From the NCBI GenBank assembly GCA_016286555.1, contig JAEETA010000007.1, positions 1 to 64,000 on the forward strand: a stretch of 64,000 nt of DNA. Direction: 5' to 3'. The notes under the pieces were generated by a model. It was not told where the DNA came from. It saw only the letters and a list, made by a program, of their open reading frames with translations, and ran no database searches. The stretch's first letter is position 1; each line of letters begins with the position of its first letter. Made by a program: the position numbers and the translations under genes. This document shows, piece by piece, positions 1,770 through 64,000 of the stretch. The stretch comes from Lachnospiraceae bacterium. Its GTDB lineage: Bacteria > Bacillota > Clostridia > Lachnospirales > Lachnospiraceae.

Positions 1770-1779
1770 TTACAAAGAT

Positions 1780-2226: not shown

Positions 2227-2313
2227 AGCGGTACCTACCTGTTTTTTCTCCTTTCACCTTACCTTTTGATGCCATAAATCCGGCAGATGTTTGACTCATT
2301 GCCTGTACTCTCT

Positions 2314-2976
2314 TCATTGCACAGTAAAAATCGTGTTTTTCTCAAACAATCCTACAGCAAATGCTAATTTGAAATACAATGGCATATTCTCATAGGCTTC
2401 AAAGCTTGTTCTCTGCAGAAATTCATCTATGGATATTTCTTCAACATAGCCATACGGATTAGCTACAGTTACCTTGTCATCAGGAATATCCATCCCTACA
2501 AGCAGAGAATAATGAAGCGTCCATACATCTCCATACTTTGCTGCCCACTCAATCGGAACAGGGATTCCGTTTGACAGGTTTTCATATGCTGCGTCTATCA
2601 GTTCTGTGTTTGACAGATATTTATGGATAGTTGTGGTATACTCCGGGAAGCGCTTGTTCATTTCTTCGCTGAACTTCTCTCCGGTTGAAGTCACTACTTT
2701 GCCATATTCATTGTACAGATCTTCTTCTGTCAGACTCCCGCCATTCCACGCTGAAAGCATCTCAATACACGCATAGCCGCAGGAAATGTCCTGAGTTATT
2801 ACTTCCACTCCATCAACATAAACAGGAGCGCTGTATTTGTCCTCCGCAAATATCGAAGAATAGTCAGTAAGTATGCTATTCGTACGGACATGCAGCCTTA
2901 TCAGGAGGCCTGCGGTTATTATCAAAATGAGTGCTACCAATATCAAAAGAAAACGAATAATCTTTTTCAAATACAT
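2314..2976 (-). CDS. Membrane-anchored C39-like cysteine peptidase domain protein
   Basis: The 220-residue protein starts with a hydrophobic segment at residues 8-26, a membrane anchor with the rest outside. The extracytoplasmic part has Q62-D-I-S-C66-G-Y-A-C70 (oxyanion Gln and nucleophile Cys), LH155YSLLVG (catalytic His) and VAN173PYG (the Asn/Asp position). These form the arrangement of papain-like C39 or C39-like peptidases. C39 domains usually cleave double-glycine leaders in bacteriocin exporters, but here there is no transporter and no double-glycine substrate nearby, so the role is open. Its start codon overlaps the stop of the methyltransferase gene. Confidence 0.72.
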   Translation of the reverse strand: MYLKKIIRFLLILVALILIITAGLLIRLHVRTNSILTDYSSIFAEDKYSAPVYVDGVEVITQDISCGYACIEMLSAWNGGSLTEEDLYNEYGKVVTSTGEKFSEEMNKRFPEYTTTIHKYLSNTELIDAAYENLSNGIPVPIEWAAKYGDVWTLHYSLLVGMDIPDDKVTVANPYGYVEEISIDEFLQRTSFEAYENMPLYFKLAFAVGLFEKNTIFTVQ

Positions 2977-3779
2977 TACTTTATTACTCTCTTTCCTTGC
3001 AGGATCATGGAAAGCGGATACCCGCTGTGATCCAATGCAGTAAAGCCACCGCTGATATCGTAGTCAAACTCCTGAAGACCGGTGACAGCAATTCCGTTAC
3101 TGCACATTCCGGAGATGATCTCCGACATCGAATGGGTAAAATCGGTAAAAGTCTTTGAATGATAGTTCTTCAGAGTCATATAATACATGCCGCCGTTTCC
3201 GGTCCATTCATGCTCAAAGTAAGAAAAATGGCATTCCAGTCTGTGTTCCGGATCAAACTCCGCATCCCCTTCCGTAGCCAGCATATTCGTGCAGGGATGC
3301 TGCTCGTTCAGAACGATCACAGCCCCGGGTTTCATACATTTGGCCACGATCTCAAAAAAGCGATTCAGATCTTCGAACCAACACAAAGCCCCTATGGTTA
3401 TGATCACAACATCAAACCGTTCCTTGAAACTGTCATCAATGTCATAAATATTCACTGCCTCAAATGTGCAGGGCAGATTTAGTTCTTTTGCCTTTTCATT
3501 TGCAAATGCGACCTGATTTTCAGCGATATCAAAGCCTACACCTTTCTCGGCCTTCCCGCCTTTTACCAGGGAAAGCAACTCCCGCCCGTTATTGCAGCAG
3601 AACTGGCCGATCGTCTTCCCTTCCGTATCGATATTTCGAAGTACCTCAACCATTTCCTTTTCAAAAAAGGGATATTCTTCTTTCCGTATGCGCTCTGTAA
3701 TATCCGCACCCCAGGATGCGTCCCTGTTATCAAAAGCCTCTTCCCACGCTGCTTTGTTCCCCTCAATATACTTTTCCAT
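2976..3779 (-). CDS. Class I SAM-dependent methyltransferase
   Basis: A 267-residue protein with a Rossmann-type methyltransferase core. Motif I appears as IGQFCCNNGRELLSL around residues 57-72, followed by GVGFDIAENQVAFA (motif II acidic residue) and FDVVIITIGALCW (motif IV). The NNGRE form of motif I is seen in one branch of small-molecule methyltransferases. An AAAGGTGA ribosome binding site precedes the ATG at 3779. It shares one base with the following C39-like gene, so the two are probably co-translated. The substrate cannot be told from sequence. Confidence 0.8.
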   Translation of the reverse strand: MEKYIEGNKAAWEEAFDNRDASWGADITERIRKEEYPFFEKEMVEVLRNIDTEGKTIGQFCCNNGRELLSLVKGGKAEKGVGFDIAENQVAFANEKAKELNLPCTFEAVNIYDIDDSFKERFDVVIITIGALCWFEDLNRFFEIVAKCMKPGAVIVLNEQHPCTNMLATEGDAEFDPEHRLECHFSYFEHEWTGNGGMYYMTLKNYHSKTFTDFTHSMSEIISGMCSNGIAVTGLQEFDYDISGGFTALDHSGYPLSMILQGKRVIK

Positions 3780-3895
3780 GAAATCACCTTTCTGCCTGAT
3801 AGATCAGCATTCCGTTTTTCGTAGAGGCGCTTTGCGTCGTCCGGTTCAAATTTCCGCACAGCCAGGCGCTCTGTTTCATAAATGTATTGTGTCAT
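3780..3895 (-). pseudogene. GNAT N-terminal fragment (RimJ/RimL type), truncated
   Basis: The frame starts MTQYIYETERLAVRKFEPDD and continues AKRLYEKRNADL, the standard opening of RimJ/RimL-type acetyltransferases. After about 38 codons it runs straight into the methyltransferase gene in another frame, and no acetyl-CoA site follows. This is the mirror image of the fragment at 1515-1769, which keeps only a C-terminal half. It overlaps the lipoprotein gene end by 20 bases. A very short functional peptide cannot be excluded but is unlikely. Confidence 0.6.
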
Positions 3896-4400
3896 TGAGT
3901 GTCACACCTCTCAACGCTTCCAGTATTGCGGCAAATCGCTGATGTTCTTTGCCGGCACCGTTTCCGGCACAATATCCTCCCACTCTGTGGGTTCCCTCCG
4001 ATGTAACAATCTCCAGATACCGCGTGGATCCGTCGTACGCTTCTACCTTCGGGAGTTCTTCCGACAATTTCATAAAGTTGCTTTCTTTCACCGCGTTTAC
4101 GATACTGTCCCAATCCTCCGGAGAGATGGTGTATTCCTTCATCTCACACTGATCCTCTGTCGGAATCTCGCCTCCGAACAGATCGACTCCGCTGCCGGTA
4201 GTGGGCCGGACAATATACTCTTTCACGGTTCCATCCGCGCTGAACACATCCAGCTCCGCCCCATCAATATCTCCATAGTTAAACACCAGAGATACCTGCT
4301 TTACATCTATATCCGGTTGCTCTCCGCATCCGCTCAGGAAAAGTGCGATCAGTACTGTGAGTGCATACACAACACGTTTTCTTTCTACGCCCGCTCTCAT
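3876..4400 (-). CDS. Small lipoprotein of unknown function
   Basis: The 174-residue protein has a lipoprotein signal peptide: RKR, a hydrophobic core and the lipobox LSGC with Cys at about residue 26. The mature part is acidic, with a beta-rich pattern (VSLVFNYGDIDGAELDVF, VKEYIVRPTT). I do not recognise the family, but similar small lipoproteins are common in clostridia. Signal peptidase II processing and attachment to the outer face of the membrane are inferred from the lipobox. Confidence 0.65.
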   Translation of the reverse strand: MRAGVERKRVVYALTVLIALFLSGCGEQPDIDVKQVSLVFNYGDIDGAELDVFSADGTVKEYIVRPTTGSGVDLFGGEIPTEDQCEMKEYTISPEDWDSIVNAVKESNFMKLSEELPKVEAYDGSTRYLEIVTSEGTHRVGGYCAGNGAGKEHQRFAAILEALRGVTLNDTIHL

Positions 4401-4496
4401 TTGTTCCCCCTTCCCTGCAATCTATCGACATACTATCGAAGCAAGTTTTTACCGCACAAAACGCTGATGATGCAACAGGTGTCATTCAGTAATATC

Positions 4497-5360
4497 TCAT
4501 GCGTGTGTTATCGACTGCATCATGAATTCATCGTCGCAATGATTTTCAAAGAACTTCCCTTTCACGAAGAACGTAGTGTCTTCCTCATGAAGTTCGCTTT
4601 TCTCAAAACCTCTCGCATCCTTAGGCGTAAAGCAAAGCACAGCCTTCTTGACCTGAGAGCCAAAAGCCTTGACGACTTCATCCACGGATCCTTCTCCGAT
4701 AATGGCATGAAGGATCAAGGTGTCATCTTCTGTTTCGGCAATGGCGTAACTGTTGCAATCAGCGATGTAGAACAGATTTTCCGTCATAAACTGTGACAGA
4801 TAAAACATGTATAATCCGGTATTTCCAACCATATACAGCTGAGCATTCTGACCTGTTTTTTCGAGAATTCCGACAGCTATGTCAAAATCATTTTTATCCT
4901 TCAGGGGAACCTGCTCTGTTTTACATTCACCGGATACCGTCACATCTTTTGAATAATGATATTCCTTTGCTTCTTTAAATCCAAATTTGGGATAAAACTC
5001 CAGCACGGAATCATTGGCAAAGAGGTAAATACCATCCACCTTTCCTTCGTAATCCTTCATGATCTCTTCCATTAACGCTCTGGCATATCCCTTCCCTCTG
5101 TAGTCAGGGTCTGTCATGATTGTTCCCAGCTGGATCAGCTTTACGATAGTTCCCTTATAGTTCATGTTGCATGCGTTGACCGAAACATTTGAAACAACCT
5201 CCCCATCTACCACAACGGAATACGGGATATAATTATCCTTCCAAAATCCGTTTTGGTACCAGTTCTCGAAATTGAGACCAAAGGTCTTTTCCGCCAGTCT
5301 GTTGAATGATGCTCTCAGCGCCTCATTGTCTCTGTAATTTTTTTCTATACATATTCCCAT
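4497..5360 (-). CDS. Two-domain GNAT N-acetyltransferase (Eis-like organisation)
   Basis: The 287-residue protein has an N-terminal GNAT domain with GTIMTDPDYRGKGYARALMEE at roughly residues 79-99, a clear acetyl-CoA motif (YRGKGYA). It then has FANDSVLEFYPKFGFKE, the final GNAT strand. A further 140-residue region follows that could be a second, degenerate GNAT or sterol-carrier-like domain, as in the Eis family. The substrate is unknown. An interval of about 95 bases separates it from the lipoprotein gene; I see no terminator or RNA in that interval. Confidence 0.8.
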   Translation of the reverse strand: MGICIEKNYRDNEALRASFNRLAEKTFGLNFENWYQNGFWKDNYIPYSVVVDGEVVSNVSVNACNMNYKGTIVKLIQLGTIMTDPDYRGKGYARALMEEIMKDYEGKVDGIYLFANDSVLEFYPKFGFKEAKEYHYSKDVTVSGECKTEQVPLKDKNDFDIAVGILEKTGQNAQLYMVGNTGLYMFYLSQFMTENLFYIADCNSYAIAETEDDTLILHAIIGEGSVDEVVKAFGSQVKKAVLCFTPKDARGFEKSELHEEDTTFFVKGKFFENHCDDEFMMQSITHA

Positions 5361-9362: not shown

Positions 9363-10139
9363 TTACCGGTAAAGCTTTTGGTATTTCTCATACAGCAACT
9401 CGCTCAGTTCATCCTTGTCCATCTTCCACATGGCAGCTGCCTGCTCATCCGTCAGGTCGAAATAGACCTGCACGATGTCACGGGTATCTCTTTTGATGTC
9501 CTTTAGAAATTCTCCGTGCTCTCCCAGGTGCATCATTGAAGTGGGGGAATCATTCCAGAACTCACCATCCACATAGCTGTTCCAGCCGGTGATGTAGACC
9601 GCGAGATCGTCACACCAGTCCTTGGGAGTTCTTTCCTGGTATCCGTCGAACCCATCCAGGAGGCACATGATGTCTTCAAAGATCACTCTGTAATCCACCA
9701 CCGCCGTAAAGACTCTGAAAAAATCATCGTAGTCGTCATTGCTTCTCAGGCGGTAATTCGTCATGTAGCTGTCCAGGGCCAGGTATTTTCTGTTTCTTTC
9801 CAGCTCCACGACCGTAGTATAGATTTCCGTTTTGTTTTTTTCTACTGTCTGGGCAACCTTTTTTTCTGTTTGCTCCTGCCGGTAATCAAAATCGGAATTT
9901 CTGCGGATGCTGCCCTTCATGTAGATGATGGCAGCAAGCATCAGGCCGATCACGATCAGCCTTCCGACTCTTCCTGCTGAGATCGACTTCTTTTTTGACT
10001 CCGATCTGGTCTGCTCATACTCCTCCCGGACGGACCGCAACGCCTCTCGCTGGCCGGCAGCTTCGGGATTGGGTTTACCGCAATAAGGGCAGACTTCATC
10101 TTCGATTTGCAGATTGTTTCCGCAGTATTGACACTTCAC
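9363..10139 (-). CDS. Zinc-ribbon membrane protein, unknown function
   Basis: The 258-residue protein starts MKCQYCGNNLQIEDEVCPYCG, a CxxC-x12-CxxC zinc ribbon typical of bacterial cytoplasmic zinc-ribbon headers. A hydrophobic helix follows at residues 56-74, then a charged linker and an extracytoplasmic domain of about 160 residues. The function is unknown. It has the same overall plan (ribbon, linker, one membrane helix, external domain) as the next gene upstream, though the external parts look different. Gaps of 17 and 11 bases on either side indicate an operon. Confidence 0.7.
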   Translation of the reverse strand: MKCQYCGNNLQIEDEVCPYCGKPNPEAAGQREALRSVREEYEQTRSESKKKSISAGRVGRLIVIGLMLAAIIYMKGSIRRNSDFDYRQEQTEKKVAQTVEKNKTEIYTTVVELERNRKYLALDSYMTNYRLRSNDDYDDFFRVFTAVVDYRVIFEDIMCLLDGFDGYQERTPKDWCDDLAVYITGWNSYVDGEFWNDSPTSMMHLGEHGEFLKDIKRDTRDIVQVYFDLTDEQAAAMWKMDKDELSELLYEKYQKLYR

Positions 10140-10156: not shown

Positions 10157-10927
10157 TTAATGATAGTTCTTAAAGTATTTTCCGGTAACCTTGTACACCT
10201 TGGATCTGTTCACATTCGGAGGAAACCAGACTTCCTCCCGGAAATTCTCCATGTCCTCTTCCGTAAAGCCCAGGCGGTCTTCTATGATGGGAAGGATCTC
10301 CGTTTCCCTGATGGGATCAAAGATCTCAGCGCCGTCCTCTCCGTAAGCCTCGTAGTAGAAATAAAAACAGTAATAGGTGATCTCCTCGGCTTCATGTTTT
10401 GACAGCTTTTCCTTGTCCAGGTTCGGCAGGCATTGCTGCAACTTCATGTAACAGCTGGAAGCATAACCCACTTCGTAGTAGGGAGCTCCCCAGATGGAGA
10501 TCCGGTCCTCAGAATAGGCCTTATCATAGATTTCCGCCATCCGGGCGATGTCCTTTGCATCATAGGCTTCCGACAGCTGCTCTCCCGCGATCCGGGTGTA
10601 GGCGGCTGCGTATTCCTGCTCTTCGGCAGTAAGGAACATCTTAGGCTTGTCCTTCGTCTCTCTGAGTAGTTCCAGAAAACAAAGACCCACGAGGAGCACC
10701 AGCACGAGGACGGTGATGAGAATGACTCTGGTTCCGCCGGTAAATCCTTTTACCAGGGCTTTGGCCGGTTCCTTCTTCGTCTCTTCGATGTTCTCCCGGA
10801 TCTCCTCCACATCTTTCCGGAACTTCTTCTCAGCCCCTTCCCTGTTGATATAGTCACAGTAGGGGCATTTCGTCGCATCTTTTTCAATTTCCGCCCCGCA
10901 GTTGGGGCAAATGATCATTTCCTTCAT
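10157..10927 (-). CDS. Zinc-ribbon membrane protein, unknown function
   Basis: The 256-residue protein starts with a zinc ribbon, CPNCG-x9-CPYC, then a charged coiled-coil-like stretch (KKFRKDVEEIRENIEETKKE), a membrane helix at about residues 68-88 and an external domain. It is the first gene of the zinc-ribbon/nuclease group and begins 35 bases after the BMP-family gene stop, so it may be read through from the large receptor operon at 15.8 kb. I do not recognise the external domain. Confidence 0.7.
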   Translation of the reverse strand: MKEMIICPNCGAEIEKDATKCPYCDYINREGAEKKFRKDVEEIRENIEETKKEPAKALVKGFTGGTRVILITVLVLVLLVGLCFLELLRETKDKPKMFLTAEEQEYAAAYTRIAGEQLSEAYDAKDIARMAEIYDKAYSEDRISIWGAPYYEVGYASSCYMKLQQCLPNLDKEKLSKHEAEEITYYCFYFYYEAYGEDGAEIFDPIRETEILPIIEDRLGFTEEDMENFREEVWFPPNVNRSKVYKVTGKYFKNYH

Positions 10928-53853: not shown

Positions 53854-54666
53854 CTATGCAGTCTCTTCCGTCTCCACATAACCGTAGCGGTTCCGAAGCA
53901 TGTCAAAGGTCACTTCGTCCACGATCCGTTTTACGGTCTCAAAGCCGCAGAAATACCGACTCCTGCGCTCGTAAGCAATGATCTCGGAAAGGTGTTCCCT
54001 GACACCTTCTCCCAGATCGAGACCCATGTCGGAAAAACAGCGAACGCCGTACTCCGTATACTCTTCGAGGGAGAAGGGCTGGCAACAGAGATCGTCCACA
54101 TTCAGGAACCATCCGATGGTATTTTTCATTCGCTCGACATTTACCGCATCCATGGCGGGGACCCGGAAGATCAGGAACTGATCCTTGACGGTCTCCCGGA
54201 GTCTGGCAAACACTGCCCGCATTTCCGGCCCTTCGATGCGGTCCATCCACTTGGTGATATCGATACAGAGCACTCTGGGGTAAGAGGGTGCCGTCAGGAT
54301 CCCGTCGTTATCCAGCACGTGAAGCAGCAGATCCCGGTCCGAGGTGAGCTGCGGCCCCTCGGCCTCCACGATATCGGGGATCCGCAGGGAATAATACCCG
54401 ATGGGCAGCTCGCCTGGGCGAAAGCATATGTTCCAGAGATCCCGCAGAGTCTTCACCCAGGTCTTGTATCCGTCTCCGTCAGCGATGGAAAGGAGCACTG
54501 CACGCTTTCTGAGGGAAAAATACTCATTGGTGTAGAGTGCGGAAAAAGTATCCCGGTAATCGGCCACGTAAGCCTTTAATTCCTCGGCCCCCAGCAGCTT
54601 TTCCGTTTTTTCTTTTAGTTCCTCATAGTTCAGCTCGACATCTTCCATTTTCTTTTCCTCTTGCAT
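53854..54666 (-). CDS. Paralogue of the N-terminal domain of the adjacent AAA+ ATPase
   Basis: The 270-residue protein has no ATPase motif. Over most of its length it aligns with residues about 120-355 of the next gene's product. Examples are FSLRKRAVLLSIADGDGYKTW against FFSRCAILFSISGGDGFSRY, and EYTEYGVRCFSDMGLDLGEG followed by YFCGFETVKRIVDE against QYAQFAVQLLSRTGYQVEDG followed by HFYGFRSVEMLTED. It is therefore a free-standing copy of the ATPase's own regulatory or substrate domain. Such a partner may form mixed complexes with the ATPase (inference). It lies 17 bases downstream. Confidence 0.75.
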   Translation of the reverse strand: MQEEKKMEDVELNYEELKEKTEKLLGAEELKAYVADYRDTFSALYTNEYFSLRKRAVLLSIADGDGYKTWVKTLRDLWNICFRPGELPIGYYSLRIPDIVEAEGPQLTSDRDLLLHVLDNDGILTAPSYPRVLCIDITKWMDRIEGPEMRAVFARLRETVKDQFLIFRVPAMDAVNVERMKNTIGWFLNVDDLCCQPFSLEEYTEYGVRCFSDMGLDLGEGVREHLSEIIAYERRSRYFCGFETVKRIVDEVTFDMLRNRYGYVETEETA

Positions 54667-54683: not shown

Positions 54684-56690
54684 TCAGACGAATCCCAGCC
54701 TGGTCTTCTTTTGCAGCAGTTCCTTGAATTCCTCCGCAGACTCCGCCTTCCGGAAATCGTCCGCCGTCAGGGTGATGAGGGATGCATCCAGTGGTCTGCC
54801 GCCCAGCTGAGCCTGTACCCGGAGGGCAGCCTTGGCTGCGGTGCGCTCATAGAGATTCCGCACAAAGCGGGCGTTGGAGAAGGACTCGCTTTCCAGCACC
54901 TCCTGCGACAGCGCCATGAAATATTCCTTCGCCGCATCTGCCAGGTCGTCTTTGACCTGATAGGTCTTTGTCGCCATGCTCATGAAGATCCGGTAGAGCT
55001 CGTCTCTGGTAAAGTTTCGGAACTTGATCTCGTGAGGGATCCTGCTCTTTAAGCCGGGATTGGCCTCCAGCATTTCCTTCATGCGGTCGGAGTAGCCGGA
55101 GAAGATCACGATGAAATCCTGCCGGTGGTTTTCCATCTGGGTCAGCAGAGTATCCAGAGCCTCCTTGCCGAAATCCCGCTCGTCATTGTTGCGGTACAGG
55201 GTGTAGGCCTCGTCGATGAAAAGCACGGAACCGTAGGCATCCCTGCAGATGGCATTGGTGATGGGCGCCGTCTCGCCGATGTATTTTCCCACGAATTCCC
55301 TGCCGGAGCGCTCGAAGAACTGCCCCTTGGAAAGGACGTTCCGCTCCTTCAGCACCTTCCCCAGGAGTCTGGCCACGGTAGTCTTGCCGGTGCCGGGATT
55401 TCCCGTAAAGAGCATGTGCATGCAGGGTTTCTGATCGGCGGGCATTCTCGAGGAAACCTCCAATTGCGCCAGGATCTCGTCCACACGCTCCCGGATCTCG
55501 TCGATGCCGATCATTTCGTCCAGCCCCTCCAGGCCGCCCTGGTCCTGTCTGCAGCGAGCCAGCATGGGTGCCAGGTCTTCCTCCCGGATGGTTTTTCTGT
55601 CTTTTAAGTCGAACCCGACCTCCTGCGACATAGCTCTCCTCCTTATCTCCGTCCGCTGCTTCTGCACCAGGATATCCTCCGTCAGCATTTCCACGGAGCG
55701 GAAGCCGTAAAAGTGTTTCTGATTGCGTTTCTGGATGATCAGCTCTTCCAGCTCATCCCGGGCCCCGTCTTCCACCTGATATCCTGTACGGGAAAGAAGC
55801 TGCACCGCAAACTGCGCGTATTGCTCGGTGGTAAAGGGCGGTACATCGATGACGATGAGAGGATAGACCTCCCGGATGGCCCGCAGGACCCGCTCCTTCT
55901 CCGCGCCTTCCATGTAGGGGATCTTAAACACGGGCAGAACCTCACTGCCGTTTTCCCGCATTTCCGTCATGAACTCATGGAACCTGGCCGTACCCGCATC
56001 CACCGTCTTGAAGGTCAGGTCAAAGGCCACCATCTGTCCCTTCATCTGACTCTCTCCGATGATGGAAGTCATTTCCTCATAGGGACGATCCTTTTTCACC
56101 TCCCGGATTTTGGACGTCCTCCCCTGGATATCCCGGACATCGCAAAGGTAAAGCACCTGCCGCAAAGTGGAGATGTAGCGGGAAAACCCGTCTCCTCCCG
56201 AGATGGAGAAAAGAATGGCGCAGCGGGAGAAGAATTCCTGCTGACACTCCGCTCCGGGCGAGGTGGAAATGGCGACAATGTCGGCACAGAGCTTTTTAAA
56301 ATCCTCCATGCCCACCAGGGTGTCCAGATTCGTCATGGTAAAAATGCTCCGGATTTTCTCCGGGCCACCCCCTTCGTCGTCCTCTTCCGCATCCTCGGGA
56401 TCTTCTCCCCCGGTACTCGTAATATCCGCAACGGAATAAAAGGACTCTTCCGAAAGGTCCAGCGCCTTCCAAAGCTCCTCCGCGATGGTATTCAGGCAAT
56501 GCTCTCTGGTGTTCAATACGCTGAATTCCAGGGACCGGCACGCCTCCTTGTGCTCGTCAAAGAGGTCCTGACGAAAGATCTTCCGGTAATGGTCCAGCAC
56601 ATAATCATCGATCTGTTTTTCTCCGATCTTCCGTCTGTCCTGAGGACCGAAGAAAAACATCATCTTAAAGACAGTCACTTTATCATTCAT
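54684..56690 (-). CDS. CbxX/SpoVK-type AAA+ ATPase with large N-terminal domain
   Basis: The 668-residue protein has an unrecognised N-terminal region (1-375) and a single AAA+ domain of the CbxX/CfqX/SpoVK family: IGIDEIRERVDEILAQLEVSS, Walker A GNPGTGKTT, the pore-like GREFVGKYIGETA, Walker B VLFIDEAYTLY, and sensor residues in FIVIFSGYSDRM. Such ATPases remodel or activate protein complexes. An acidic patch EDAEEDDEGGG lies near residue 100. It follows the small protein gene by two bases. A paralogue of its N-terminal half is encoded next. Confidence 0.9.
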   Translation of the reverse strand: MNDKVTVFKMMFFFGPQDRRKIGEKQIDDYVLDHYRKIFRQDLFDEHKEACRSLEFSVLNTREHCLNTIAEELWKALDLSEESFYSVADITSTGGEDPEDAEEDDEGGGPEKIRSIFTMTNLDTLVGMEDFKKLCADIVAISTSPGAECQQEFFSRCAILFSISGGDGFSRYISTLRQVLYLCDVRDIQGRTSKIREVKKDRPYEEMTSIIGESQMKGQMVAFDLTFKTVDAGTARFHEFMTEMRENGSEVLPVFKIPYMEGAEKERVLRAIREVYPLIVIDVPPFTTEQYAQFAVQLLSRTGYQVEDGARDELEELIIQKRNQKHFYGFRSVEMLTEDILVQKQRTEIRRRAMSQEVGFDLKDRKTIREEDLAPMLARCRQDQGGLEGLDEMIGIDEIRERVDEILAQLEVSSRMPADQKPCMHMLFTGNPGTGKTTVARLLGKVLKERNVLSKGQFFERSGREFVGKYIGETAPITNAICRDAYGSVLFIDEAYTLYRNNDERDFGKEALDTLLTQMENHRQDFIVIFSGYSDRMKEMLEANPGLKSRIPHEIKFRNFTRDELYRIFMSMATKTYQVKDDLADAAKEYFMALSQEVLESESFSNARFVRNLYERTAAKAALRVQAQLGGRPLDASLITLTADDFRKAESAEEFKELLQKKTRLGFV

Positions 56691-56692
56691 GC

Positions 56693-56950
56693 TTAGGATT
56701 CCTTCACGATAACGCCCTTTGTCTTCAGCTCCTCCACGGCATCGTATCCGCCGGCTGCCAGGATCCGTCCCCTTTCATCCACCTCCACGGCGGTGCGGAC
56801 ATGGTCGGAATTCATGCTCCATATGTGTTCTTCCACGAAAAAGCCGCCTCCCGTGCGGGGTTTTTGCTCAAAGGAAGTATCCTCCATCCATTCCGTCCGG
56901 TGGATGATCTCCATCAGTTCCTCTGCAGTGATCGTTTTCTGTTCGCTCAT
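56693..56950 (-). CDS. Small acidic protein, unknown function
   Basis: The 85-residue protein starts MSEQKTITAEELMEIIHRTE and ends VEELKTKGVIVKES. No motif is recognised. ATG 56950 has GGGAGG upstream; the frame open to 57190 would cross a promoter. It is the first gene of the AAA+ operon, two bases before the ATPase gene, and may be an adaptor for it (inference from position). Confidence 0.7.
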   Translation of the reverse strand: MSEQKTITAEELMEIIHRTEWMEDTSFEQKPRTGGGFFVEEHIWSMNSDHVRTAVEVDERGRILAAGGYDAVEELKTKGVIVKES

Positions 56951-56990
56951 GTATCCGCCTCCCTTCAAAACGGGGCGTTCCCCCAAAGAT

Positions 56991-56999
56991 ATTATATCA
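56991..56999 (-). promoter_or_regulatory. Extended -10 promoter for the AAA+ operon
   Basis: TGA-TATAAT on the minus strand, 41 bases before ATG 56950, is a perfect -10 with the TGn extension; the -35 region is weak (TTACCC at 19 bases). Confidence 0.6.
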
Positions 57000-57067
57000 C
57001 CCGGAAGGGCGTAATGGGTAATTCGACGGAGTTTCCCGATTTTTTTCCTGTTTTTTGTGCGTTTTCT

Positions 57068-57096
57068 TTGCCAGAACAGGGTTCCTTGTGTAAAAT
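57068..57096 (+). promoter_or_regulatory. Promoter of the TerB-like gene
   Basis: TTGCCA (57068-57073), 17-base spacer, TAAAAT (57091-57096), about 53 bases before ATG 57150. It is divergent from the AAA+ promoter in the same 200-base interval. Confidence 0.55.
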
Positions 57097-57149
57097 GGGT
57101 ATATAACAAAAAACGGCTCCCGCAAGGGGCGCCCACAAGGAGGATTTCT

Positions 57150-57593
57150 ATGTCTGTTTTTGATGATACCTTACAGAGAATCGTTAACATGGACGACAGG
57201 GAGAAAATGGCTCTGGCCGCTTCCAGCTTCCGGGATGTCTATCCTGCAATGTGCCGTTTCGATGACGAGCCCGACGCAGACGGACATTACATCTTCACCA
57301 TCATCCTTGCCGGCGTTCTGGCTGCAGACGGCAAGTTCAATGATTATGAGCTGGGCATGGCTGCCGGCATCCTGAAGGCCGTAGGATATGATTTCTCCTC
57401 TGACGAGCTTGCCAATATCCTGGCAAAGATCCTGAAGGGCCTGGATGTTTACAAGATCATCGGCAACTTCAACAATACGCTTGATGAGGATGAGAACGTT
57501 GCATTCGTCACCCTGGTGGCTACCATCTGCTCCATCGATGACAGGATCAGCAAGGAAGAGGTGGCTCTGATCCGCGATCTGCTGGAGGGCTGA
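57150..57593 (+). CDS. TerB-like (tellurite resistance/DUF533-type) protein
   Basis: The 147-residue, all-helical acidic protein has IILAGVLAADGKFNDYELGM and FVTLVATICSIDDRISKEEV, the two DG/D-x(n)-E repeats of the TerB fold that bind metal or phosphate. ATG 57150 has a perfect AAGGAGG seven bases upstream; an in-frame ATG at 57057 lacks one. It is a single-gene plus-strand unit between two minus-strand operons, with its own promoter and terminator. TerB domains occur with vWA, AAA and kinase genes in Ter stress systems, which is also the context here. Confidence 0.78.
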   Translation: MSVFDDTLQRIVNMDDREKMALAASSFRDVYPAMCRFDDEPDADGHYIFTIILAGVLAADGKFNDYELGMAAGILKAVGYDFSSDELANILAKILKGLDVYKIIGNFNNTLDEDENVAFVTLVATICSIDDRISKEEVALIRDLLEG

Positions 57594-57714: not shown

Positions 57715-58596
57715 TCAATATCTGGAGTAGGACACCCCCAGCTCCTGCAACTTGGCGATGCGGTCATGAGGCTCGGGATGGGAGGAATACAGCGCCTTGA
57801 AGAAGGAACTCTTGGGTTTCCCCCAGGTGATGGTATCCAGCGCTGCTGCCAGATGATCGCCGTACCCGATCTCGTAGGCATACCGGTCCGCCTCGTACTC
57901 ATTGGCTCTGCTGGACCACATCAGGAAGAGCATGCAGAATTTCGTCCACAGGAAGACCAGCAGTGCGGAGAATATATCCAGCAGTCCGAAGATCAGACCC
58001 ACGATATCATCCCCATCCTTCCGGAAGAGATTCAGGGTCGCCCAGGCCGCCTTGATGTAGTAGAACACCCGAAGGACCAGCAGGAATGTGGTAATGATGA
58101 TATTTCCGCCGCCGATCATCAGCTGGATCACGGTATGATGCATGGCCAGATGCCCCAGCTCGTGAACCAGGATGCCTTCGATCATCTCCTCCGGCAGATC
58201 CAGCAGCCCCTCCGTCACGCAGACAGTCCGCTTTCCGATGGCATAGGCGTTGGGTTCCGGATCATGCATGACCTTCAGGATGATCACATCGGGAAGGGCG
58301 TTGCCGGATTTTTTCTCCGCCGCTGCCTGCACCCGCTGTATGATGGGGGTGATCTTCTCCCGCATGTCCAGTCGCCGCATTTTCCGTGCTCCGGCGAAAA
58401 ATCCCAGAGCCCACTCCCCCAGAGGAGAGAGGGACAGGAGCACGCTGACGACATAAGCAATACCCACATATACCATCTTCCGAGGCTCACCGTCGGAAAA
58501 CCAGACGATGATCAGGGCCGCATTCAGGAAGAAAAACACGATGGATCCCAGATTGCTGAGCCGAAAGATACTTTTGAGCACATGGAACAGATACAT
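57715..58596 (-). CDS. M48 family metalloprotease (HtpX-like)
   Basis: The 293-residue membrane protein has the zinc motif HELGHLAMHH (HExxH) and the third ligand Glu in RANEYEADRYAYEIG. Hydrophobic helices lie at about residues 18-57 and in two further stretches (155-215). HtpX-type proteases degrade or clip membrane proteins under stress. It is the last gene of the vWA-PP2C-kinase operon, three bases after the zinc-finger membrane protein gene. The 121 bases downstream hold only the TerB terminator and a GCCGTGC-TT-GCACGGC palindrome at 57687-57702. Confidence 0.9.
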   Translation of the reverse strand: MYLFHVLKSIFRLSNLGSIVFFFLNAALIIVWFSDGEPRKMVYVGIAYVVSVLLSLSPLGEWALGFFAGARKMRRLDMREKITPIIQRVQAAAEKKSGNALPDVIILKVMHDPEPNAYAIGKRTVCVTEGLLDLPEEMIEGILVHELGHLAMHHTVIQLMIGGGNIIITTFLLVLRVFYYIKAAWATLNLFRKDGDDIVGLIFGLLDIFSALLVFLWTKFCMLFLMWSSRANEYEADRYAYEIGYGDHLAAALDTITWGKPKSSFFKALYSSHPEPHDRIAKLQELGVSYSRY

Positions 58597-58599
58597 AGA

Positions 58600-59322
58600 T
58601 CACTCTCCTGCCTTGTTTTCTCTGCGTTCCCGCACTGCCTGCTCGAAGGGGGATAAGGCTTCCCCGGCGTCCTCTGCAGGATCCTCTGTGAGACCACCCG
58701 CCGGGTCTTCCGTGAGATCCTCTGCGGCATTCGCTGCGGGGTCTTCCGTCTCCAACGTCTGCGGATACTGTACTTCCAGTCTGTCCGCTGTCTCCCGGTA
58801 ATGCCGGACGCTCAGGCCGATCCAGATGATCAGCGGGATCAGAACGACAGCCAGAACCACCCTGCGAATAGTGCGGCTCCAGTAGCTCCGGGCATACTCT
58901 CTTGCCTTGCGATCCGACGCAGCTTTGGAGAGCTCCCGGGCCTTGCGCTCTGCCTCGGCCTTTGCTTTCTCTGCCGCCAGACGCTCTGCTTCCAGTCTCT
59001 CCACTTCCGCTTTCGCCGCTTCTATCCCGGAGGCCGCCTCTTTTTTCAATGCGGTAAATGCATCCGTCTTTGCTTTCTCTTTGGAAAATTCGGGCGTGCT
59101 GTGGGAAGTACCCTCTGCTTTGGGCGGTTTCGGTGAAACGACCTTTTCCTCCGGCTCCGGTTTTTTGATGGGTTTCGGCCGAAATTTTTCCGCCGGAGGG
59201 GCCTCATGCTTCGGCGGATCGGGGCGCATGGAAACCCCGGCCGGCCTTGCCGCACCGCAGATATCGCATTCCGTTAAGGAATCATCATTATATGCATCAC
59301 ACTGCGGACATTGCCAGCTCAT
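58600..59322 (-). CDS. RanBP2-type zinc-finger, coiled-coil membrane protein
   Basis: The 240-residue protein starts with W3-x-C5-x2-C8-x3-N12-x6-C19-x2-C22, exactly the RanBP2-type zinc-finger pattern. A proline-rich linker follows (residues 28-75), then an alanine/glutamate-rich coiled coil (about 95-150) and one membrane helix (about 158-178). An acidic repeat-rich external tail has three EDPA-type copies (AAEDLTEDPAGGLTEDPAED). The cytoplasmic finger could bind a protein or RNA partner of the kinase. I do not know the full-length family. It is 18 bases downstream of the PWPEH-repeat gene. Confidence 0.72.
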   Translation of the reverse strand: MSWQCPQCDAYNDDSLTECDICGAARPAGVSMRPDPPKHEAPPAEKFRPKPIKKPEPEEKVVSPKPPKAEGTSHSTPEFSKEKAKTDAFTALKKEAASGIEAAKAEVERLEAERLAAEKAKAEAERKARELSKAASDRKAREYARSYWSRTIRRVVLAVVLIPLIIWIGLSVRHYRETADRLEVQYPQTLETEDPAANAAEDLTEDPAGGLTEDPAEDAGEALSPFEQAVRERRENKAGE

Positions 59323-59340
59323 CTAAGCCTCCTGCGTTTC

Positions 59341-59634
59341 CTACACCTTGCGGGCCATCTTTTGCACCACAAGCATTTCCGAACGCAAAAACCGTCCGGA
59401 TCCGTCCTCTTTGTAGAAGGTATAGCCCTTCACCCCGGAGAGCACGGTCTGCTCCGAACTCACATATCCCATGGATTTCAGAGCCTTTTTGTCAAATTCG
59501 ATGCCATGCTCCGGCCAGGGCTTCGCAAATCCCTTCGCCACAGCAGCCTTTTTATCCTCTTTGTTCTTCTTCCGCAACCGATAGGAGAGCTTTATCGCCT
59601 CCCAGTCGGAAAAAGCAACCGCGGTCTCTTTCAT
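59341..59634 (-). CDS. Small protein made of one PWPEH repeat (kinase-tail homologue)
   Basis: The 97-residue protein has a basic N-terminus (RLRKKNKEDKKA) and, at residues 39-97, one copy of the repeat found three times in the kinase tail: PWPEHGIEFD, KSMGYVSS, GVKGYTFYKEDGSG, EMLVVQKMARK. The last ten residues match the third kinase repeat almost exactly (VVQKMARK). It is encoded directly after the kinase gene with no gap, so it is likely to be made in parallel. It could be a competitor, adaptor or substrate of the kinase (inference). Confidence 0.75.
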   Translation of the reverse strand: MKETAVAFSDWEAIKLSYRLRKKNKEDKKAAVAKGFAKPWPEHGIEFDKKALKSMGYVSSEQTVLSGVKGYTFYKEDGSGRFLRSEMLVVQKMARKV

Positions 59635-60327
59635 TTACTCTTTCCTCGCCATTTTCTGCACCACAGCCATCTCTGCGCGGATGAACTGATCGCTGCCGTC
59701 GGGGCGGCTGAACCGGTATCCGTTCACCCCACCGATGGTATCTCTGGCCACGGCGGAAAATCCCTTCTTTCCGATGACCTCCGGATCAAAGGTGATCCGA
59801 TGCTCCGGCCAGGGATCGCACAGCTTCACACCGCCGGATACGGGGCCGTGAGTTGTCGTCTCCTTTTTCGTTTCCGGTGCAGGTTTGGGCACTGTCGTCT
59901 CTTTCCTTGCTTCCGGGGCCGCAGCCTTCGTTCCTGCGGAAGGAGAAGAGGCACTTCCGCCCCCGGCGTAGCCCATGCCCACCACCATTTCCTTCCGGAA
60001 GAAGGTGTAGGTGGAATCCGCACGATAGAAACGATATCCCTTGATGCCGTCCATGAGGAAACGGCTCACGCCGACGAATCCGCGGCTCTTGATCTTCTCG
60101 ACATTGAAGGAAATGCCGTGCTCCTCCCAGGGATCTTCAAATCCCAGGCTGCGCTTCAGCAGTCCTTCCAGGGCCAGTTCCACCTTGGAAAGGACTCTCT
60201 TTTTGCCGTCAGAGGAGGTGAGCTCATACTTTTTCTCGGAGCCCTCCGTCACTTTTTTCAGCCCCTCGATGCCGCGCTTTTCAAAGGCCTCCGCATCCAG
60301 GATGATCTCATGCTCCGGCCAGGGTTC
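59344..60327 (-). repeat. Four copies of the PWPEH protein repeat
   Basis: Copies lie at 60160-60327 (kinase residues 311-366), 59968-60135 (375-430), 59647-59817 (481-537) and 59344-59520 (small protein 39-97). Shared features are PW-x-EH-x-I, an acidic residue just after, K/R-G-F/Y/I about ten residues on, G-V/I-K/N-G-Y-x-F, and a closing EM-x-VV. Copy 1 is most diverged. The DNA has drifted enough that only the protein pattern is obvious. Confidence 0.8.
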
Positions 60328-61257
60328 CTCGATGATCCGCTCCTCTTCCTTCAGACGCTTCAGCACCTCCAGTGCGGTGGGGCGCTCCTCGGGATCCTTT
60401 TTCAGCATATCCTCGATGAGGGAACGGTATTTCTTCTTGTCGATGGCGGGGCTGATCTTCAGCTTTGCCCCTGCATTCACGGCTACCCAGGCATAGATCT
60501 TCTTCCCCTTGGCAGCGCGCTTCTGCAGTTTCTCCGGAAGGTCCGTCACCTCCGGCAGTTCCCCGCTCAGGTAGAAATGAAAGATCAGTCCCAGGGAGAA
60601 AATGTCGGATTTCTGGGTCAGTGTATGGGCCGCAGCTGCCATTTCCTCCTCATCCTCCAACTGGGAGTAAAGTCCCAGCTCGGGGGAGTAGTAGTTCACG
60701 TCACCCACGATCTCATCCGGCTTGTCATCCAGGGGATAACTGCTGTCAAAATCGATGAGCTTTGCCACGTAATTGCCCGCGGCATTGCGCACCAGCAGCA
60801 CGTTTTTCAGCTTCAGGTCACTGTGGACGATGCCCAGCTTATGGACGCTGGAAAGAGCTCCTGCCGCCGTCTGCATCAGGAGTTTTTTCACATCCACGGA
60901 CAGGCTCCGCAGCACGCCCTCCAGCTCTTCCTCCGGAACCACGCCCTCGACGAATTCCGCCGCTTCCGCGTATTTGTTCTCTATCATGAACTCCGCTTCC
61001 GGGATCACGATGTTACCGCCGGAGCCGGTGATGGTCCGGATCAGGGAGTTGACGGTGGTCCTGGTCTTTACGAAATGATCGAAGAGCTTCTGATTGTGGG
61101 CGAAGGTCTTGGCATCCAGGGTTCCGTTTTTCACGGGGGCCGCGGGAGTGTTGTATTTTTTCAGAAAATACTTCTTACCGCCCTTTTTCGCAAGGGCGGT
61201 CTCTCCGCACTGACTGTTTTTCCATTCGCCTATGACGGTATAGCCGTTTACGGTCAT
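59635..61257 (-). CDS. Ser/Thr protein kinase with C-terminal PWPEH repeats
   Basis: A 540-residue protein. The kinase domain spans 1-300: candidate ATP lysine K33/K34 in YFLKKY, catalytic loop H145-S-D147-LKLKN152, metal Asp D169 in IDFD (DFG replaced by DFD) and SPE191-193 for APE. The glycine loop is not typical. Residues 311-537 hold three PWPEH repeats with a low-complexity linker before the third. No membrane helix is seen. I chose ATG 61257, with AAAGGAG eight bases upstream; the ATG at 61275 would place that site in the coding part. It directly follows the PP2C gene. Confidence 0.87.
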   Translation of the reverse strand: MTVNGYTVIGEWKNSQCGETALAKKGGKKYFLKKYNTPAAPVKNGTLDAKTFAHNQKLFDHFVKTRTTVNSLIRTITGSGGNIVIPEAEFMIENKYAEAAEFVEGVVPEEELEGVLRSLSVDVKKLLMQTAAGALSSVHKLGIVHSDLKLKNVLLVRNAAGNYVAKLIDFDSSYPLDDKPDEIVGDVNYYSPELGLYSQLEDEEEMAAAAHTLTQKSDIFSLGLIFHFYLSGELPEVTDLPEKLQKRAAKGKKIYAWVAVNAGAKLKISPAIDKKKYRSLIEDMLKKDPEERPTALEVLKRLKEEERIIEEPWPEHEIILDAEAFEKRGIEGLKKVTEGSEKKYELTSSDGKKRVLSKVELALEGLLKRSLGFEDPWEEHGISFNVEKIKSRGFVGVSRFLMDGIKGYRFYRADSTYTFFRKEMVVGMGYAGGGSASSPSAGTKAAAPEARKETTVPKPAPETKKETTTHGPVSGGVKLCDPWPEHRITFDPEVIGKKGFSAVARDTIGGVNGYRFSRPDGSDQFIRAEMAVVQKMARKE

Positions 61258-61271
61258 GATACCGGCTCCTT

Positions 61272-62531
61272 TCAATCTTCACTGACATATCTGTCGGGAA
61301 ATGCGATGTAATCGTGGAGATAGTTTTCAAACAGCGCTTCCTGCAGAGATCTCTTCAGCTGCAGCACGGTTTCGTCCGCAGGGGAAGGCTCCGCAGTGCC
61401 CTCCGGAACTGCCGGCTTTTCCTCTTCCGGCTTCAAGCTGATGCCGGTGGCATAGTCGTACTCCAGCAGGTCGGGCATTTTTTCCAGATATTTTTCCTGC
61501 AGCGCTTCCAGACGCTTTTTCGCGCTCTCCTGCAGGCTTTCAAAGGAGTCGTAGCCAAAGAATTTCATCGCCATGGTGGAGCTGTCGTCGTGCCTGCCGT
61601 GCTCTTTGAAAAAGTCGGTGAGGCGCTCTCCCATCTCCTTTTCCGACTTCGATATGACAGCTGTGTCAAGCAGCAGTTTTTCGAAGGCCATGGGCGACAG
61701 GAACTGTTTGGAATCAAAGCAGCCGTCGCTGGCGTTAAAGAGAATGCAGGGCTTTTTAAAGGTCATGAAATCACAGCGGATCCGGATGCCCTCGGTGTTG
61801 TTGGCCCGGATGTAATTCGTCATGCCGCCGTCAGGGCCTTCCTCGTCCGGCAGGAGCTGACGCAGTCCTTTGCTTTCCTCCCAGACGTAAGGTCTGGAAT
61901 CACCCGCCGTCAGGTACACGGCCCGCACCCCGTCCTCGGTCTCACGATACAGGGTGAGGCACAGAGTGGTACCCAAAAGAGCCAGTCCGGAATACGCGGA
62001 CTCATAGGTGAGTCCTGCCCGCTCCGCCACCAGCTTCAGGCCTTCCACGACCTCGGAGGTGAGATGTTCCTCTGCTTTTTGTAATTGTGCTCTTCGTTCT
62101 TCCGCGGGGAGTGCACTGAGATGATCGATCCAGCCCGGACAGTCAAAGGGCGGATCATTATAAAGAAATATATGCAAAAAAATCCCGGCAACGATGCGGG
62201 ATGCGAAATATCCGCTTTTCTTAATGTTGTTGACGTTGTCCGTGTAACAATCACGAACGGCAAACAGCTCAAAAAACGAATCTCTGATGTAAGTTTCAAA
62301 TGCCGGCGGCATATCCCCGCCGTACTGCTGTCCGAAGAGAACCTTCGGAAGAAGTGCCGGATCAAAAAGCTCCGGGCGGATGTTCTGATGACGGATCGCA
62401 GCGGCTCCCCCAAGCCCGTCCGCAACCAGAAGCAGTCTGTCATTCACAAGGGGGAGAGCATCCTCCCCCTTGTAGACGATCGTACCGTCCGGCCGCTCTT
62501 TAAAAGCCTGCCTGTAAACCGTTAATTCCAC
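61272..62531 (-). CDS. PP2C-family protein phosphatase
   Basis: The 419-residue protein has the PP2C metal-site motifs LLVADGLGG (D38), TAGDSRPYVW, NASDGCFDS and HDDSSTMAM in the correct order, with insertions between motifs 1 and 2. The last 90 residues are a charged helical tail. It is predicted to reverse phosphorylation by the kinase encoded next. It starts right after the vWA gene and precedes the kinase by 15 bases; the three form the core of the operon. Confidence 0.85.
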   Translation of the reverse strand: MELTVYRQAFKERPDGTIVYKGEDALPLVNDRLLLVADGLGGAAAIRHQNIRPELFDPALLPKVLFGQQYGGDMPPAFETYIRDSFFELFAVRDCYTDNVNNIKKSGYFASRIVAGIFLHIFLYNDPPFDCPGWIDHLSALPAEERRAQLQKAEEHLTSEVVEGLKLVAERAGLTYESAYSGLALLGTTLCLTLYRETEDGVRAVYLTAGDSRPYVWEESKGLRQLLPDEEGPDGGMTNYIRANNTEGIRIRCDFMTFKKPCILFNASDGCFDSKQFLSPMAFEKLLLDTAVISKSEKEMGERLTDFFKEHGRHDDSSTMAMKFFGYDSFESLQESAKKRLEALQEKYLEKMPDLLEYDYATGISLKPEEEKPAVPEGTAEPSPADETVLQLKRSLQEALFENYLHDYIAFPDRYVSED

Positions 62532-63218
62532 TTAGAAGGATCCCACCATCAGATCGATCGCAGACTGGATGTCCACATCCGCGAGACCGGTTCCTGCGGG
62601 GGAGAAAGCGGGCCAGTAACGGTTCCACGCCTGCATCTCCGTCCAGGGATATGCATTGGGAACGAATGCTACCAGTCTGCCTGCCTTGGGCTGATAATTG
62701 CTGGTAAGAGTCTGATCGGTGCCCTCCCACCATGCAGCCAGCTGCTTGATATCCTCGGGCATTCCCTGAGGATAGGATGCTTCGCCCTTGTTCTTGCCCA
62801 GCTCATGCGCGGGAGCATCGGAGAACACCAGGATCGCATGACGTCTCTTGGCACCCTCGGTGGTCCAGTCGGACTTCAGCGCCACAGCGATGGCTTCCAG
62901 TGCATCCTCTTCCGTGTCAGCGCCGCCGTTTGCTTCGATGCCGTTTACGAATGCCTTGAAATCGTCGGTCTCGTCGGGCAGCACGAAGAATTTGGACTCA
63001 TCCATGGGGCTGCGGTCTGCCTTATAGTCGCCGAATGCGATGACCTTGATGCGAAGCTGTTCCACTTCCTTGTCGTTCTCGTCCATCGCATCCACAAATC
63101 TCTGATAGAAGGAGAGTGCGTTGCTTTTCACCTCATCGATGATGGGAGCCATACTTCCCGTCTTATCGATGCACATGACGATGTCCACGCAATACTCGCC
63201 CATACCCTGTCCAGCCAT
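62532..63218 (-). CDS. von Willebrand factor A domain protein (TerY-like)
   Basis: The 228-residue protein is a single vWA domain: VDIVMCIDKTGSM gives a MIDAS of D18-x-T20-x-S22 (T in place of the usual S), followed by VKVIAFGDYKADRSP and HAILVFSDAPAHE. Stand-alone cytoplasmic vWA proteins of this size, next to PP2C and kinase genes, are called TerY. No signal peptide is seen. GGAGG lies seven bases before the ATG. It is the first gene of the six-gene operon. Confidence 0.85.
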   Translation of the reverse strand: MAGQGMGEYCVDIVMCIDKTGSMAPIIDEVKSNALSFYQRFVDAMDENDKEVEQLRIKVIAFGDYKADRSPMDESKFFVLPDETDDFKAFVNGIEANGGADTEEDALEAIAVALKSDWTTEGAKRRHAILVFSDAPAHELGKNKGEASYPQGMPEDIKQLAAWWEGTDQTLTSNYQPKAGRLVAFVPNAYPWTEMQAWNRYWPAFSPAGTGLADVDIQSAIDLMVGSF

Positions 63219-63283: not shown

Positions 63284-63348
63284 TTGATAGAAAATACCGT
63301 TAATTGTATGATAAAATGTCTATTGCGGAGTTTCAAGTGATTCCGCAA
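63284..63348. promoter_or_regulatory. Overlapping divergent promoters sharing one -10 region, with an inverted repeat
   Basis: Plus strand: TTGATA (63284-63289), 17 bases, TATGAT (63307-63312), serving the gene at 63389. Minus strand: TTGAAA (63331-63336), 17 bases, TATCAT (63308-63313), serving the vWA operon. The two -10 hexamers overlap by five bases, so polymerase can occupy only one at a time. The inverted repeat TTGCGGA-12-TCCGCAA (63323-63329 and 63342-63348) surrounds the minus-strand -35. Confidence 0.75.
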
Positions 63349-63388: not shown

Positions 63389-64000
63389 ATGCTTTTATCC
63401 GGCATTTTTCACACGGGGGAAGGAATCTTCTGGATCCTCTGTTTTTCCGTGGCACTCATTCTCTTTATCGCCGGCATTGCTTATCTGATCATCCAAAGAA
63501 AGGTACGGGGTGAGGATCTGGCCAAGGCAACGGTGTTTGAATTCATCGCAGCCGTCATTCTCTTCCTGCCGGGAGAACTCTTTGACAACGGTACATTGCG
63601 GGTGATCCCGGTACTGAAGGGCACGGAGAGTCTGCTGACCTCCATCCTGCGGACCATCAACATGTACATGGGCAACGACTACTCCGAGGTGGCCCTGGAA
63701 GGACATCCCGTATTTTCCACCGCCTATGCGGCCCTGATGACCGCTACCAACATTGCTCTGCTGGTCTTTGCCTTCGGATTTTTGATCAAATTCCTGGACG
63801 GCCCGCTGCAGAAGCTCCGTCTCCTCCTGCGGGGGAAGAGAAATACCTATCTCTTCACGGACATTAACGAAAAGACCATGACCATCGCGGGATCCGTTCC
63901 GGACAAAAACAGATCCCTGGTCTTCTGTTCCCAGGGCACCGAACTGACTCCGGAACAACGGGAACGGATCGAGGAAATGGGCGGCATCTATGTCAACGAT
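63389..64000 (+). CDS. Membrane protein with possible RCK-like nucleotide-binding domain, cut by the right edge
   Basis: ATG 63389 has a perfect AAGGAGGG six bases upstream and the frame is open for 204 codons to the window end. Three hydrophobic helices lie at about residues 12-36, 47-62 and 112-136. After a basic loop (RLLLRGKRN) a soluble domain begins NTYLFTDINEKTMTIAGSVPDKN and RSLVFCSQGTE, which looks like the first strands of a Rossmann or RCK-type domain, as in channel-associated proteins. The family is not certain. It is transcribed away from the vWA operon from an overlapping promoter. Confidence 0.75.
   Translation, partial: MLLSGIFHTGEGIFWILCFSVALILFIAGIAYLIIQRKVRGEDLAKATVFEFIAAVILFLPGELFDNGTLRVIPVLKGTESLLTSILRTINMYMGNDYSEVALEGHPVFSTAYAALMTATNIALLVFAFGFLIKFLDGPLQKLRLLLRGKRNTYLFTDINEKTMTIAGSVPDKNRSLVFCSQGTELTPEQRERIEEMGGIYVND

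Follow-up and report, generated by a model that had tools for sequence, protein, structure and literature searches.

A vWA/PP2C/kinase gene set resembling TerY-P, with PWPEH repeats on its kinase, in a Lachnospiraceae bacterium

Does the six-gene cluster on the minus strand at 57715-63218 of Lachnospiraceae contig JAEETA010000007.1 represent a TerY-P triad with new partners, or a different system built on the same plan? The stretch analysed, referred to here as the window, comprises positions 1 to 64,000 of that contig. A first-pass annotation, made from the sequence alone, had described the cluster as an operon resembling a TerY-P triad, in a Ter-type setting and with partners unfamiliar from it. 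According to our analysis, the vWA, PP2C and kinase genes look like a separate-lineage, Ter-linked, TerY-P-like set of gut bacteria. The fuller reading, a Ter-linked TerY-P-like phosphorylation module of separate lineage working as a repeat-docked, membrane-linked switch, has in our judgement about an even chance of being correct.

Six densely spaced minus-strand open reading frames were verified in the window, at the place and on the strand given by the first-pass annotation. Only the kinase start is in doubt, as the listed codon is TTG and an ATG six codons downstream (~61257) is favoured by the starts of relatives. The kinase ends in three copies of PWPEH, an alpha/beta repeat of ~59 residues. 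The small PWPEH-repeat protein, already recognised as such, turned out to be a fourth, free copy of this C-terminal repeat, a relation that had gone unstated. The features, with genes taken from the open reading frame list and repeats from the repeat profile, are:

62532..63218, minus strand: vWA protein, 228 residues, VWA_4 family; metal ion-dependent adhesion site (MIDAS) residues D18, T20, S22 and D134 present
61272..62531, minus strand: PP2C-type phosphatase, 419 residues, GTG start; metal-binding aspartates present
59635..61275, minus strand: Ser/Thr kinase, 546 residues as listed, three C-terminal PWPEH repeats; K39, H151, D153 and D175 present
60154..60327, minus strand: kinase PWPEH repeat 1
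59965..60135, minus strand: kinase PWPEH repeat 2
59641..59817, minus strand: kinase PWPEH repeat 3
59341..59634, minus strand: stand-alone PWPEH protein, 97 residues, repeat at 59347-59523
58600..59322, minus strand: RanBP2-type zinc finger protein, 240 residues, one transmembrane-like stretch at about residues 150-175
57715..58596, minus strand: M48 metalloprotease with transmembrane-like stretches and HELGH

The claimed triad of adjacent vWA, PP2C and Ser/Thr kinase genes was found at this locus with its key residues present. Pfam searches, proposed at the outset for each protein, placed the vWA protein (VWA_4, 3.7e-10), the kinase (Pkinase, 5.3e-23) and the protease (Peptidase_M48, 1.7e-26) over cut-off; PP2C_2 (0.012, 15.6 bits, cut-off 24) and Zn_ribbon_RanBP (2.9e-6, 26.9 bits, just below the cut-off of 27) fell short, and the 97-residue protein matched no Pfam family. 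Because the Pfam score alone is below cut-off, the PP2C identity is argued from the aspartates D38, D211, D269 and D316, which all 66 aligned rows retain. In the kinase, H151, D153 and D175 are kept in 72 of 72 rows and K39 in 70 of 72; the VAIK lysine, the HxD motif and the DFx motif are all present, and the retained catalytic residues rule out a pseudokinase. The vWA residue D18 is kept in 98 of 99 rows, T20 and S22 in 95 of 99.

Conservation of gene order was evaluated in loci drawn by vWA alignment, namely the best 80 of at least 477 confirmed relatives. Counts refer to L055-L134; L048, L049 and L052 were left out; their lengths and matches equal those of L055, L057 and L112, which appear to be identical contigs. 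Several contigs end within the locus, so that absence counts are upper bounds. Genes were taken from a simple open reading frame chooser, with wrong-strand frames in some maps, and neighbour clusters (RanBP2, TerD, transglutaminase-like and others) were named from one or two scanned members apiece. The kinase repeat was detected in 39 of the 80 loci. The first-pass annotation had named scattered homologues as the finding that would speak against it; instead, all 39 repeat-bearing loci keep the order vWA-PP2C-kinase on one strand, the vWA gene being sometimes doubled or tripled, with median gaps of 82 nucleotides between vWA and PP2C (-55 to 2283) and -1 nucleotide between PP2C and kinase (-52 to 128). 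As the loci were selected by vWA (80) and by kinase repeat (39), this count tests PP2C, order and strand. Across all 80 loci, both PP2C and kinase labels were present in 63 and at least one was missing in 17; vWA-PP2C-kinase was found 53 times, PP2C-kinase-vWA nine times and vWA-kinase-PP2C once. Seven vWA genes of the window family, six of them consecutive, were seen in L094, with neither a PP2C nor a kinase labelled in the available DNA.

The unusual partners recur as well. L056 carries the exact six-gene order, vWA, PP2C, kinase, PWPEH protein, RanBP2-motif protein and M48 protease, followed by a TerD protein, and L068 differs by one extra 343-residue protein before M48. Behind M48, L068 continues with small TerY_C-like, convergent TerB-like, SpoVK-type ATPase, 270-residue and CbrC-like genes, and the window is alike except for the TerY_C-like gene. 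The order kept in all 39 repeat-bearing loci led us to reject chance neighbourhood of the six genes. The proposal of a six-gene operon was borne out in part: the six genes belong to a larger recurrent set including TerD, TerB-like, TerY-C-like, AAA+ ATPase, FtsH-like and transglutaminase-like proteins, with the M48 protease (4 of 39 repeat-bearing loci) and the free PWPEH protein (6 of 39) as optional members.

The PWPEH repeat sets this system apart. A profile grown on chosen genes of the 80 loci and the window recovered, at its inclusion cut-off, 109 repeats in 47 proteins, and repeat-bearing kinases have two or three copies as a rule. A search of 44 whole genomes, reached via 45 loci, gave 113 matches in 40 of them; the four genomes without a match are those of L108, L109, L118 and L134, included for contrast. 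Kinase-sized frames of 455-602 residues held 106 of the 113 matches and frames of 77-260 residues the other seven; the former were classed by length, some of them (e.g. G759:C137 and G779:C65) lying on contigs outside those read. Among 392 genomes of the order, the repeat was found in the window's own genome only. In L070 and L078 the PWPEH protein also bears a RanBP2 motif, and in L084 it has two other cysteine pairs forming a zinc-finger-like segment. These fusions are the best hint that the repeat and the fingers may act together.

AlphaFold2, applied to 24 aligned kinase C-termini, predicted the PWPEH unit as a compact strand-helix-three-strand-helix-strand fold with a mean predicted local distance difference test score (pLDDT) of 84; the predicted template-modelling score (pTM) of 0.44 means that the relative arrangement of the repeats is not fixed by the model. 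The fold of the repeat region had no match in PDB or BFVD at an E-value of 0.001 or better, the higher-probability PDB matches being short chemokine-like pieces with E-values above 0.3, and a PDB sequence search with the PWPEH profile returned nothing at an E-value of 1. In open-licence literature, judged by titles, the opening lines of abstracts and term counts, we recognised no description of the repeat, nor of RanBP2-finger and M48 partners for a triad of this kind.

In a kinase tree of 72 rows, the 40 repeat-bearing kinases fall on one side of a single branch (support 100/98, present in 99% of 200 bootstrap trees). A single gain of PWPEH by the kinase is therefore likely, though not proven because of long-branch warnings and a root placed by midpoint. 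Copy number can differ between close relatives. The L055 contig is near-identical to the window (vWA 100%, PP2C 98% identity), and its kinase gene is 192 bases shorter (2481-3929, against 59635-61275 in the window). A single in-frame block of 192 bases, equal to one repeat period and placed between two repeats, accounts for the difference, and the sequence matches over 6 bases at the joint; of the 34 other mismatches between the two kinase genes, 23 fall within the stretch of repeat 2 and its linker. This one-repeat difference might possibly be an assembly error. A more far-reaching proposal is that this is a new form of phospho-signalling of gut Firmicutes, in which the undescribed repeat, after a single gain by the kinase and further spread in free proteins and zinc-finger fusions, would be a docking code through which kinase, phosphatase and MIDAS vWA scaffold connect with RanBP2-finger membrane proteins and interchangeable proteases of the membrane, its copy number varying between near-identical strains as under conflict-driven selection. 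In this full form we consider it rather doubtful and offer it tentatively.

W-x-C-x2-C-x3-N-x6-C-x2-C is the pattern of the RanBP2 finger. A pattern scan found it in the finger protein, and the RanBP2 identity is argued from this match since the Pfam score alone is below cut-off. A putative membrane-anchor role, as suggested in the first-pass annotation, fits its single transmembrane-like stretch. The M48 protease has HELGH at residue 145, an EYEADRYA stretch downstream and several transmembrane-like stretches. It shares the M48 domain, HELGH and such stretches with HtpX and other M48 membrane proteases, and differs in the placement of its gene within a triad operon and in its HtpX scores; identity as the housekeeping HtpX was rejected with NCBIfam HtpX scores of at most 49.8 against cut-offs of 245-422. 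Outside the repeat-bearing set, M48 was found in one of the 41 other loci, and in all five M48 loci the gene shares the strand of the operon and follows the preceding gene at a distance of 4 to 54 bases. M48 was found in 3 of 12 genomes searched; the window gene is the only one in its own genome (G000, assembly 89.8% complete), and G223 likewise has a single one.

How close is the triad to TerY-P? Comparison was made with the triad proteins of R478 alone, where TerY, a TerY-C protein, PP2C and kinase lie in the classical arrangement among the ter genes. The three-component plan is shared, as are, in relatives, the Ter-domain neighbours. A SpoVK-type AAA+ ATPase accompanies the window operon, and PMC11090510 reports ATPases of this type from some TerY-P-containing CoCoNuT loci, where they lie between VWA genes. 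On the other side stand a VWA_4-type vWA protein, a divergent PP2C, PWPEH repeats on the kinase, and RanBP2-finger and M48 partners. The claim that the vWA protein is TerY-like did not hold: R478 TerY matches Pfam VWA and VWA_2, whereas VWA_4 is best for the window protein, and the two share 21% identity (blastp E-value 0.004, hhalign probability 13); by sequence, the window protein does not belong to the TerY family. The PP2C proteins matched at an E-value of 0.023 and the kinases at 4e-7 over residues 140-236. A tblastn search with the window vWA of a plasmid collection including R478 gave 13 records at an E-value of 1e-3, none from Enterobacterales.

The kinase C-terminus is also of another kind. 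PMC11090510 places a zinc ribbon at the C-terminal end of the TerY-P kinase, with an OB-fold there in the antiphage type; the window kinase ends in its three PWPEH repeats, a region with no Pfam family and no confident match to a solved structure. Since the likeness to R478 is at superfamily level and PWPEH stands in place of zinc ribbon or OB-fold, the system is likely to work like TerY-P, and the statement that it is TerY-P is not supported. These same differences in vWA, PP2C and kinase C-terminus make it very improbable that the operon is a true TerY-P triad diverged past easy recognition and serving metal sensing, despite the three-enzyme make-up, the Ter-domain neighbours and the TerY_C-like proteins of L049 and L068 that such an origin would explain. 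PADLOC TerY-P profiles matched nothing in the window (for the kinase, among the best 25 of 34 matches), and this silence is void as an argument against TerY-P, as the R478 triad is equally silent. A further parallel is offered by actinobacterial GAP1-N2 GTPase systems, which adjoin vWA/PP2C/kinase triplets according to PMC7159879. These triplets likewise consist of neighbouring genes for an active kinase, an active PP2C and a stand-alone vWA protein, but the window system occurs mostly in gut Clostridia and carries PWPEH repeats.

As gene context, the Ter-type setting proposed for the operon is real in relatives, near whose triads TerD, TerB-like and TerY-C-like proteins recur. L049 has a TerY_C protein (30.9 bits, cut-off 28.4) and TerB over cut-off, and the TerY_C-like protein of L068 stays under cut-off with 21.8 bits. 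TerD was found in 10 of 39 repeat-bearing loci and 1 of 41 others, AAA+/M41 (FtsH-like) proteins in 6 of 39 and 0 of 41; these and most TerD cases thus belong to the repeat-bearing clade. The corresponding counts are 12 of 39 and 3 of 41 for transglutaminase-like proteins, 8 of 39 and 1 of 41 for YbjN, and 4 of 39 and 1 of 41 for SpoVK-type ATPases. The TerD proteins of L056 (16576-17568) and eight other aligned loci have a cysteine-rich N-terminal segment faintly like TerY-C. These segments aligned with R478 TerY-C at an hhalign probability of 62 over 36 columns, a match that two co-aligned TerY_C-like rows may carry, and Pfam found no match in the three of the nine that were scanned.

What could such an operon do? 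Opposed enzymes and a MIDAS vWA protein with their key residues are encoded together; one repeat is common to the kinase and small proteins, finger-like fusions exist in three relatives, and neighbours have transmembrane-like stretches. We propose that the kinase and the phosphatase control whether the membrane-linked zinc-finger protein, or a complex formed around it, is phosphorylated. The PWPEH repeats would dock the kinase, the free PWPEH adaptor and the finger protein together at the membrane, with the vWA protein as a metal-dependent scaffold and PP2C resetting the switch. Stress would turn on a membrane output, of which proteolysis at the membrane may be one. In the window's own genome this output would be the M48 protease, for which an FtsH-like AAA+/M41 or transglutaminase-like protein may stand in among relatives.

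Several observations weigh against this repeat-docked switch. The TerB-like protein of the window scores 21.7 bits against the Pfam TerB cut-off of 24.4, TerD was not found in the own genome, and no TerY-C protein was present among the window proteins scanned with Pfam. The PDB and BFVD searches gave no confident match that would name a ligand for the PWPEH fold, and the kinase tree bears the warnings and the midpoint root mentioned above. RanBP2-motif proteins occur in 28 of 39 repeat-bearing loci and in 20 of 41 loci without PWPEH, so that the finger goes with the triad more widely and is no special mark of the repeat-bearing clade; the finger protein might be an RNA- or DNA-binding protein instead of an anchor for a complex. 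Most relatives lack M48 and most lack the free PWPEH protein, hence neither can be the core output, and the M48 gene of G026 lies on a contig other than that of its triad. Finally, 21 of the 39 repeat-bearing loci show no M48, AAA+/M41 or transglutaminase-like gene in the available DNA.

This last figure bears equally on the idea that the kinase/phosphatase pair governs M48 and FtsH-like proteolysis for quality control of membrane proteins or the envelope, with no link to metals or phages. One of the three genes is present in the other 18 repeat-bearing loci, and an Hsp20-like gene was noticed upstream of the L049 triad; the Ter-type domains TerD, TerB and TerY-C of relatives speak against it, and we regard such a role as improbable.

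The surroundings of the operon supply arguments for another function. The features beyond the six genes are:

63308..63336, minus strand: promoter-like site with 10 of 12 matches, upstream of the vWA gene
57147..57593, plus strand: convergent TerB-like protein (Pfam; the listed open reading frame starts at 57057)
54684..56690, minus strand: SpoVK/CbxX-type AAA+ ATPase, 668 residues (Pfam and NCBIfam scan)
53854..54666, minus strand: 270-residue protein, no family over cut-off; phmmer link to SpoVK-type ATPases; same position in L068
52962..53816, minus strand: 284-residue protein, weakly CbrC-like over one stretch (32.6 bits, cut-off 300); L068 has a homologue in the corresponding position
63389..64000, continuing to contig position 65287, plus strand: divergent RCK-channel-like membrane protein, 632 residues; same divergent position in L056 and L068

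Within 57715-63218 the minus strand showed no promoter-like site; six such sites in the region against 5.2 by chance mean that the site upstream of vWA is no excess over chance. Relatives of the AAA+ ATPase were detected in L068, L074, L080, L087 and L091, L074 displaying vWA genes only. The predicted structure of the 632-residue membrane protein (pLDDT 81, pTM 0.73) resembles tandem-RCK potassium channels and CASTOR/DMI1 gating rings (Foldseek 6.6e-8 and 3.0e-7; root-mean-square deviation 8-15 A over the whole chain). Beyond it, at contig positions 65284-67491, lies a gene for a TIR/Sel1 protein with a weak match to Thoeris ThsB (4.8e-5), and the channel-like and TIR pair also stands beside the triad in L056. 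In L146 (G263) the channel-like gene adjoins a TIR gene with no triad on that 4.7-kb stretch; for this reason channel and TIR may form an independent module able to sit beside the triad.

Alternatively, phage infection might trip the vWA/PP2C/kinase switch, with the membrane protease or the TIR and RCK-channel pair as effector halting growth of the infected cell, an anti-phage function that overlaps in part with the repeat-docked switch. Activity of TerY-P triads against phages is reported in PMC7699616 and PMC10889362. The TIR and channel-like neighbours, the weak ThsB match of the TIR protein and the patchy presence in 3 of 31 genus genomes point the same way, as does the likeness of the kinase domain to MAD6 (PADLOC 8.4e-23) and PD-T4-6 kinases (4.5e-15). 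This likeness is at superfamily level, however, and the R478 Ter kinase displays it too; the matched stretches, 124-310 and 125-313, stop before the PWPEH repeats, and identity as the MADS defence kinase MAD6 was rejected at 67 bits against an NCBIfam equivalog cut-off of 460. Furthermore, the channel-like protein occurs in 10 of 299 family genomes, with a vWA match listed only for G000, G263 and, weakly, G124, and in G263 channel and vWA are on different contigs; the channel-like protein therefore mostly occurs without the triad, neighbours having been read at three of its loci. No Pfam nuclease family was over cut-off among ten window proteins scanned. Taken as a whole, we think an anti-phage function unlikely.

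Within the family, a vWA match was found in 11 of 397 genomes, six of them strong and including the own genome. Window-type vWA and kinase occur together on a Herpetosiphon plasmid, a Calothrix plasmid and one 12-kb phage-labelled contig, and across the two collections these three records alone gave kinase matches at an E-value of 1e-10 or vWA matches spanning 80% of the query. From this distribution we infer that the system is accessory and spreading.

Triads of vWA, PP2C and kinase recur across bacteria, and the lineage described here may help to show what such triads switch and how the signal is read. The present version is compact, its defined repeat being confined, in the genomes searched, to kinase-sized frames and a few small proteins, and the natural zinc-finger fusions together with a membrane protease in the same operon lay docking, substrate and output open to direct test.

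Some minor observations concern other genes. In L049, a same-genus relative, a 1224-residue FtsK/SpoIIIE-type ATPase (1571-5245, Pfam 9.9e-24) is encoded upstream of the triad, where coiled-coil-like, Hsp20-like and CheW-like genes were also noted by eye. A small open reading frame of the window at 56693-57190 has a C-terminal part that by eye resembles a 121-residue protein encoded just upstream of the L056 vWA gene. Far from the operon, two adjacent genes at 9363-10139 and 10157-10927 appear by eye to have zinc-ribbon-like N-termini.

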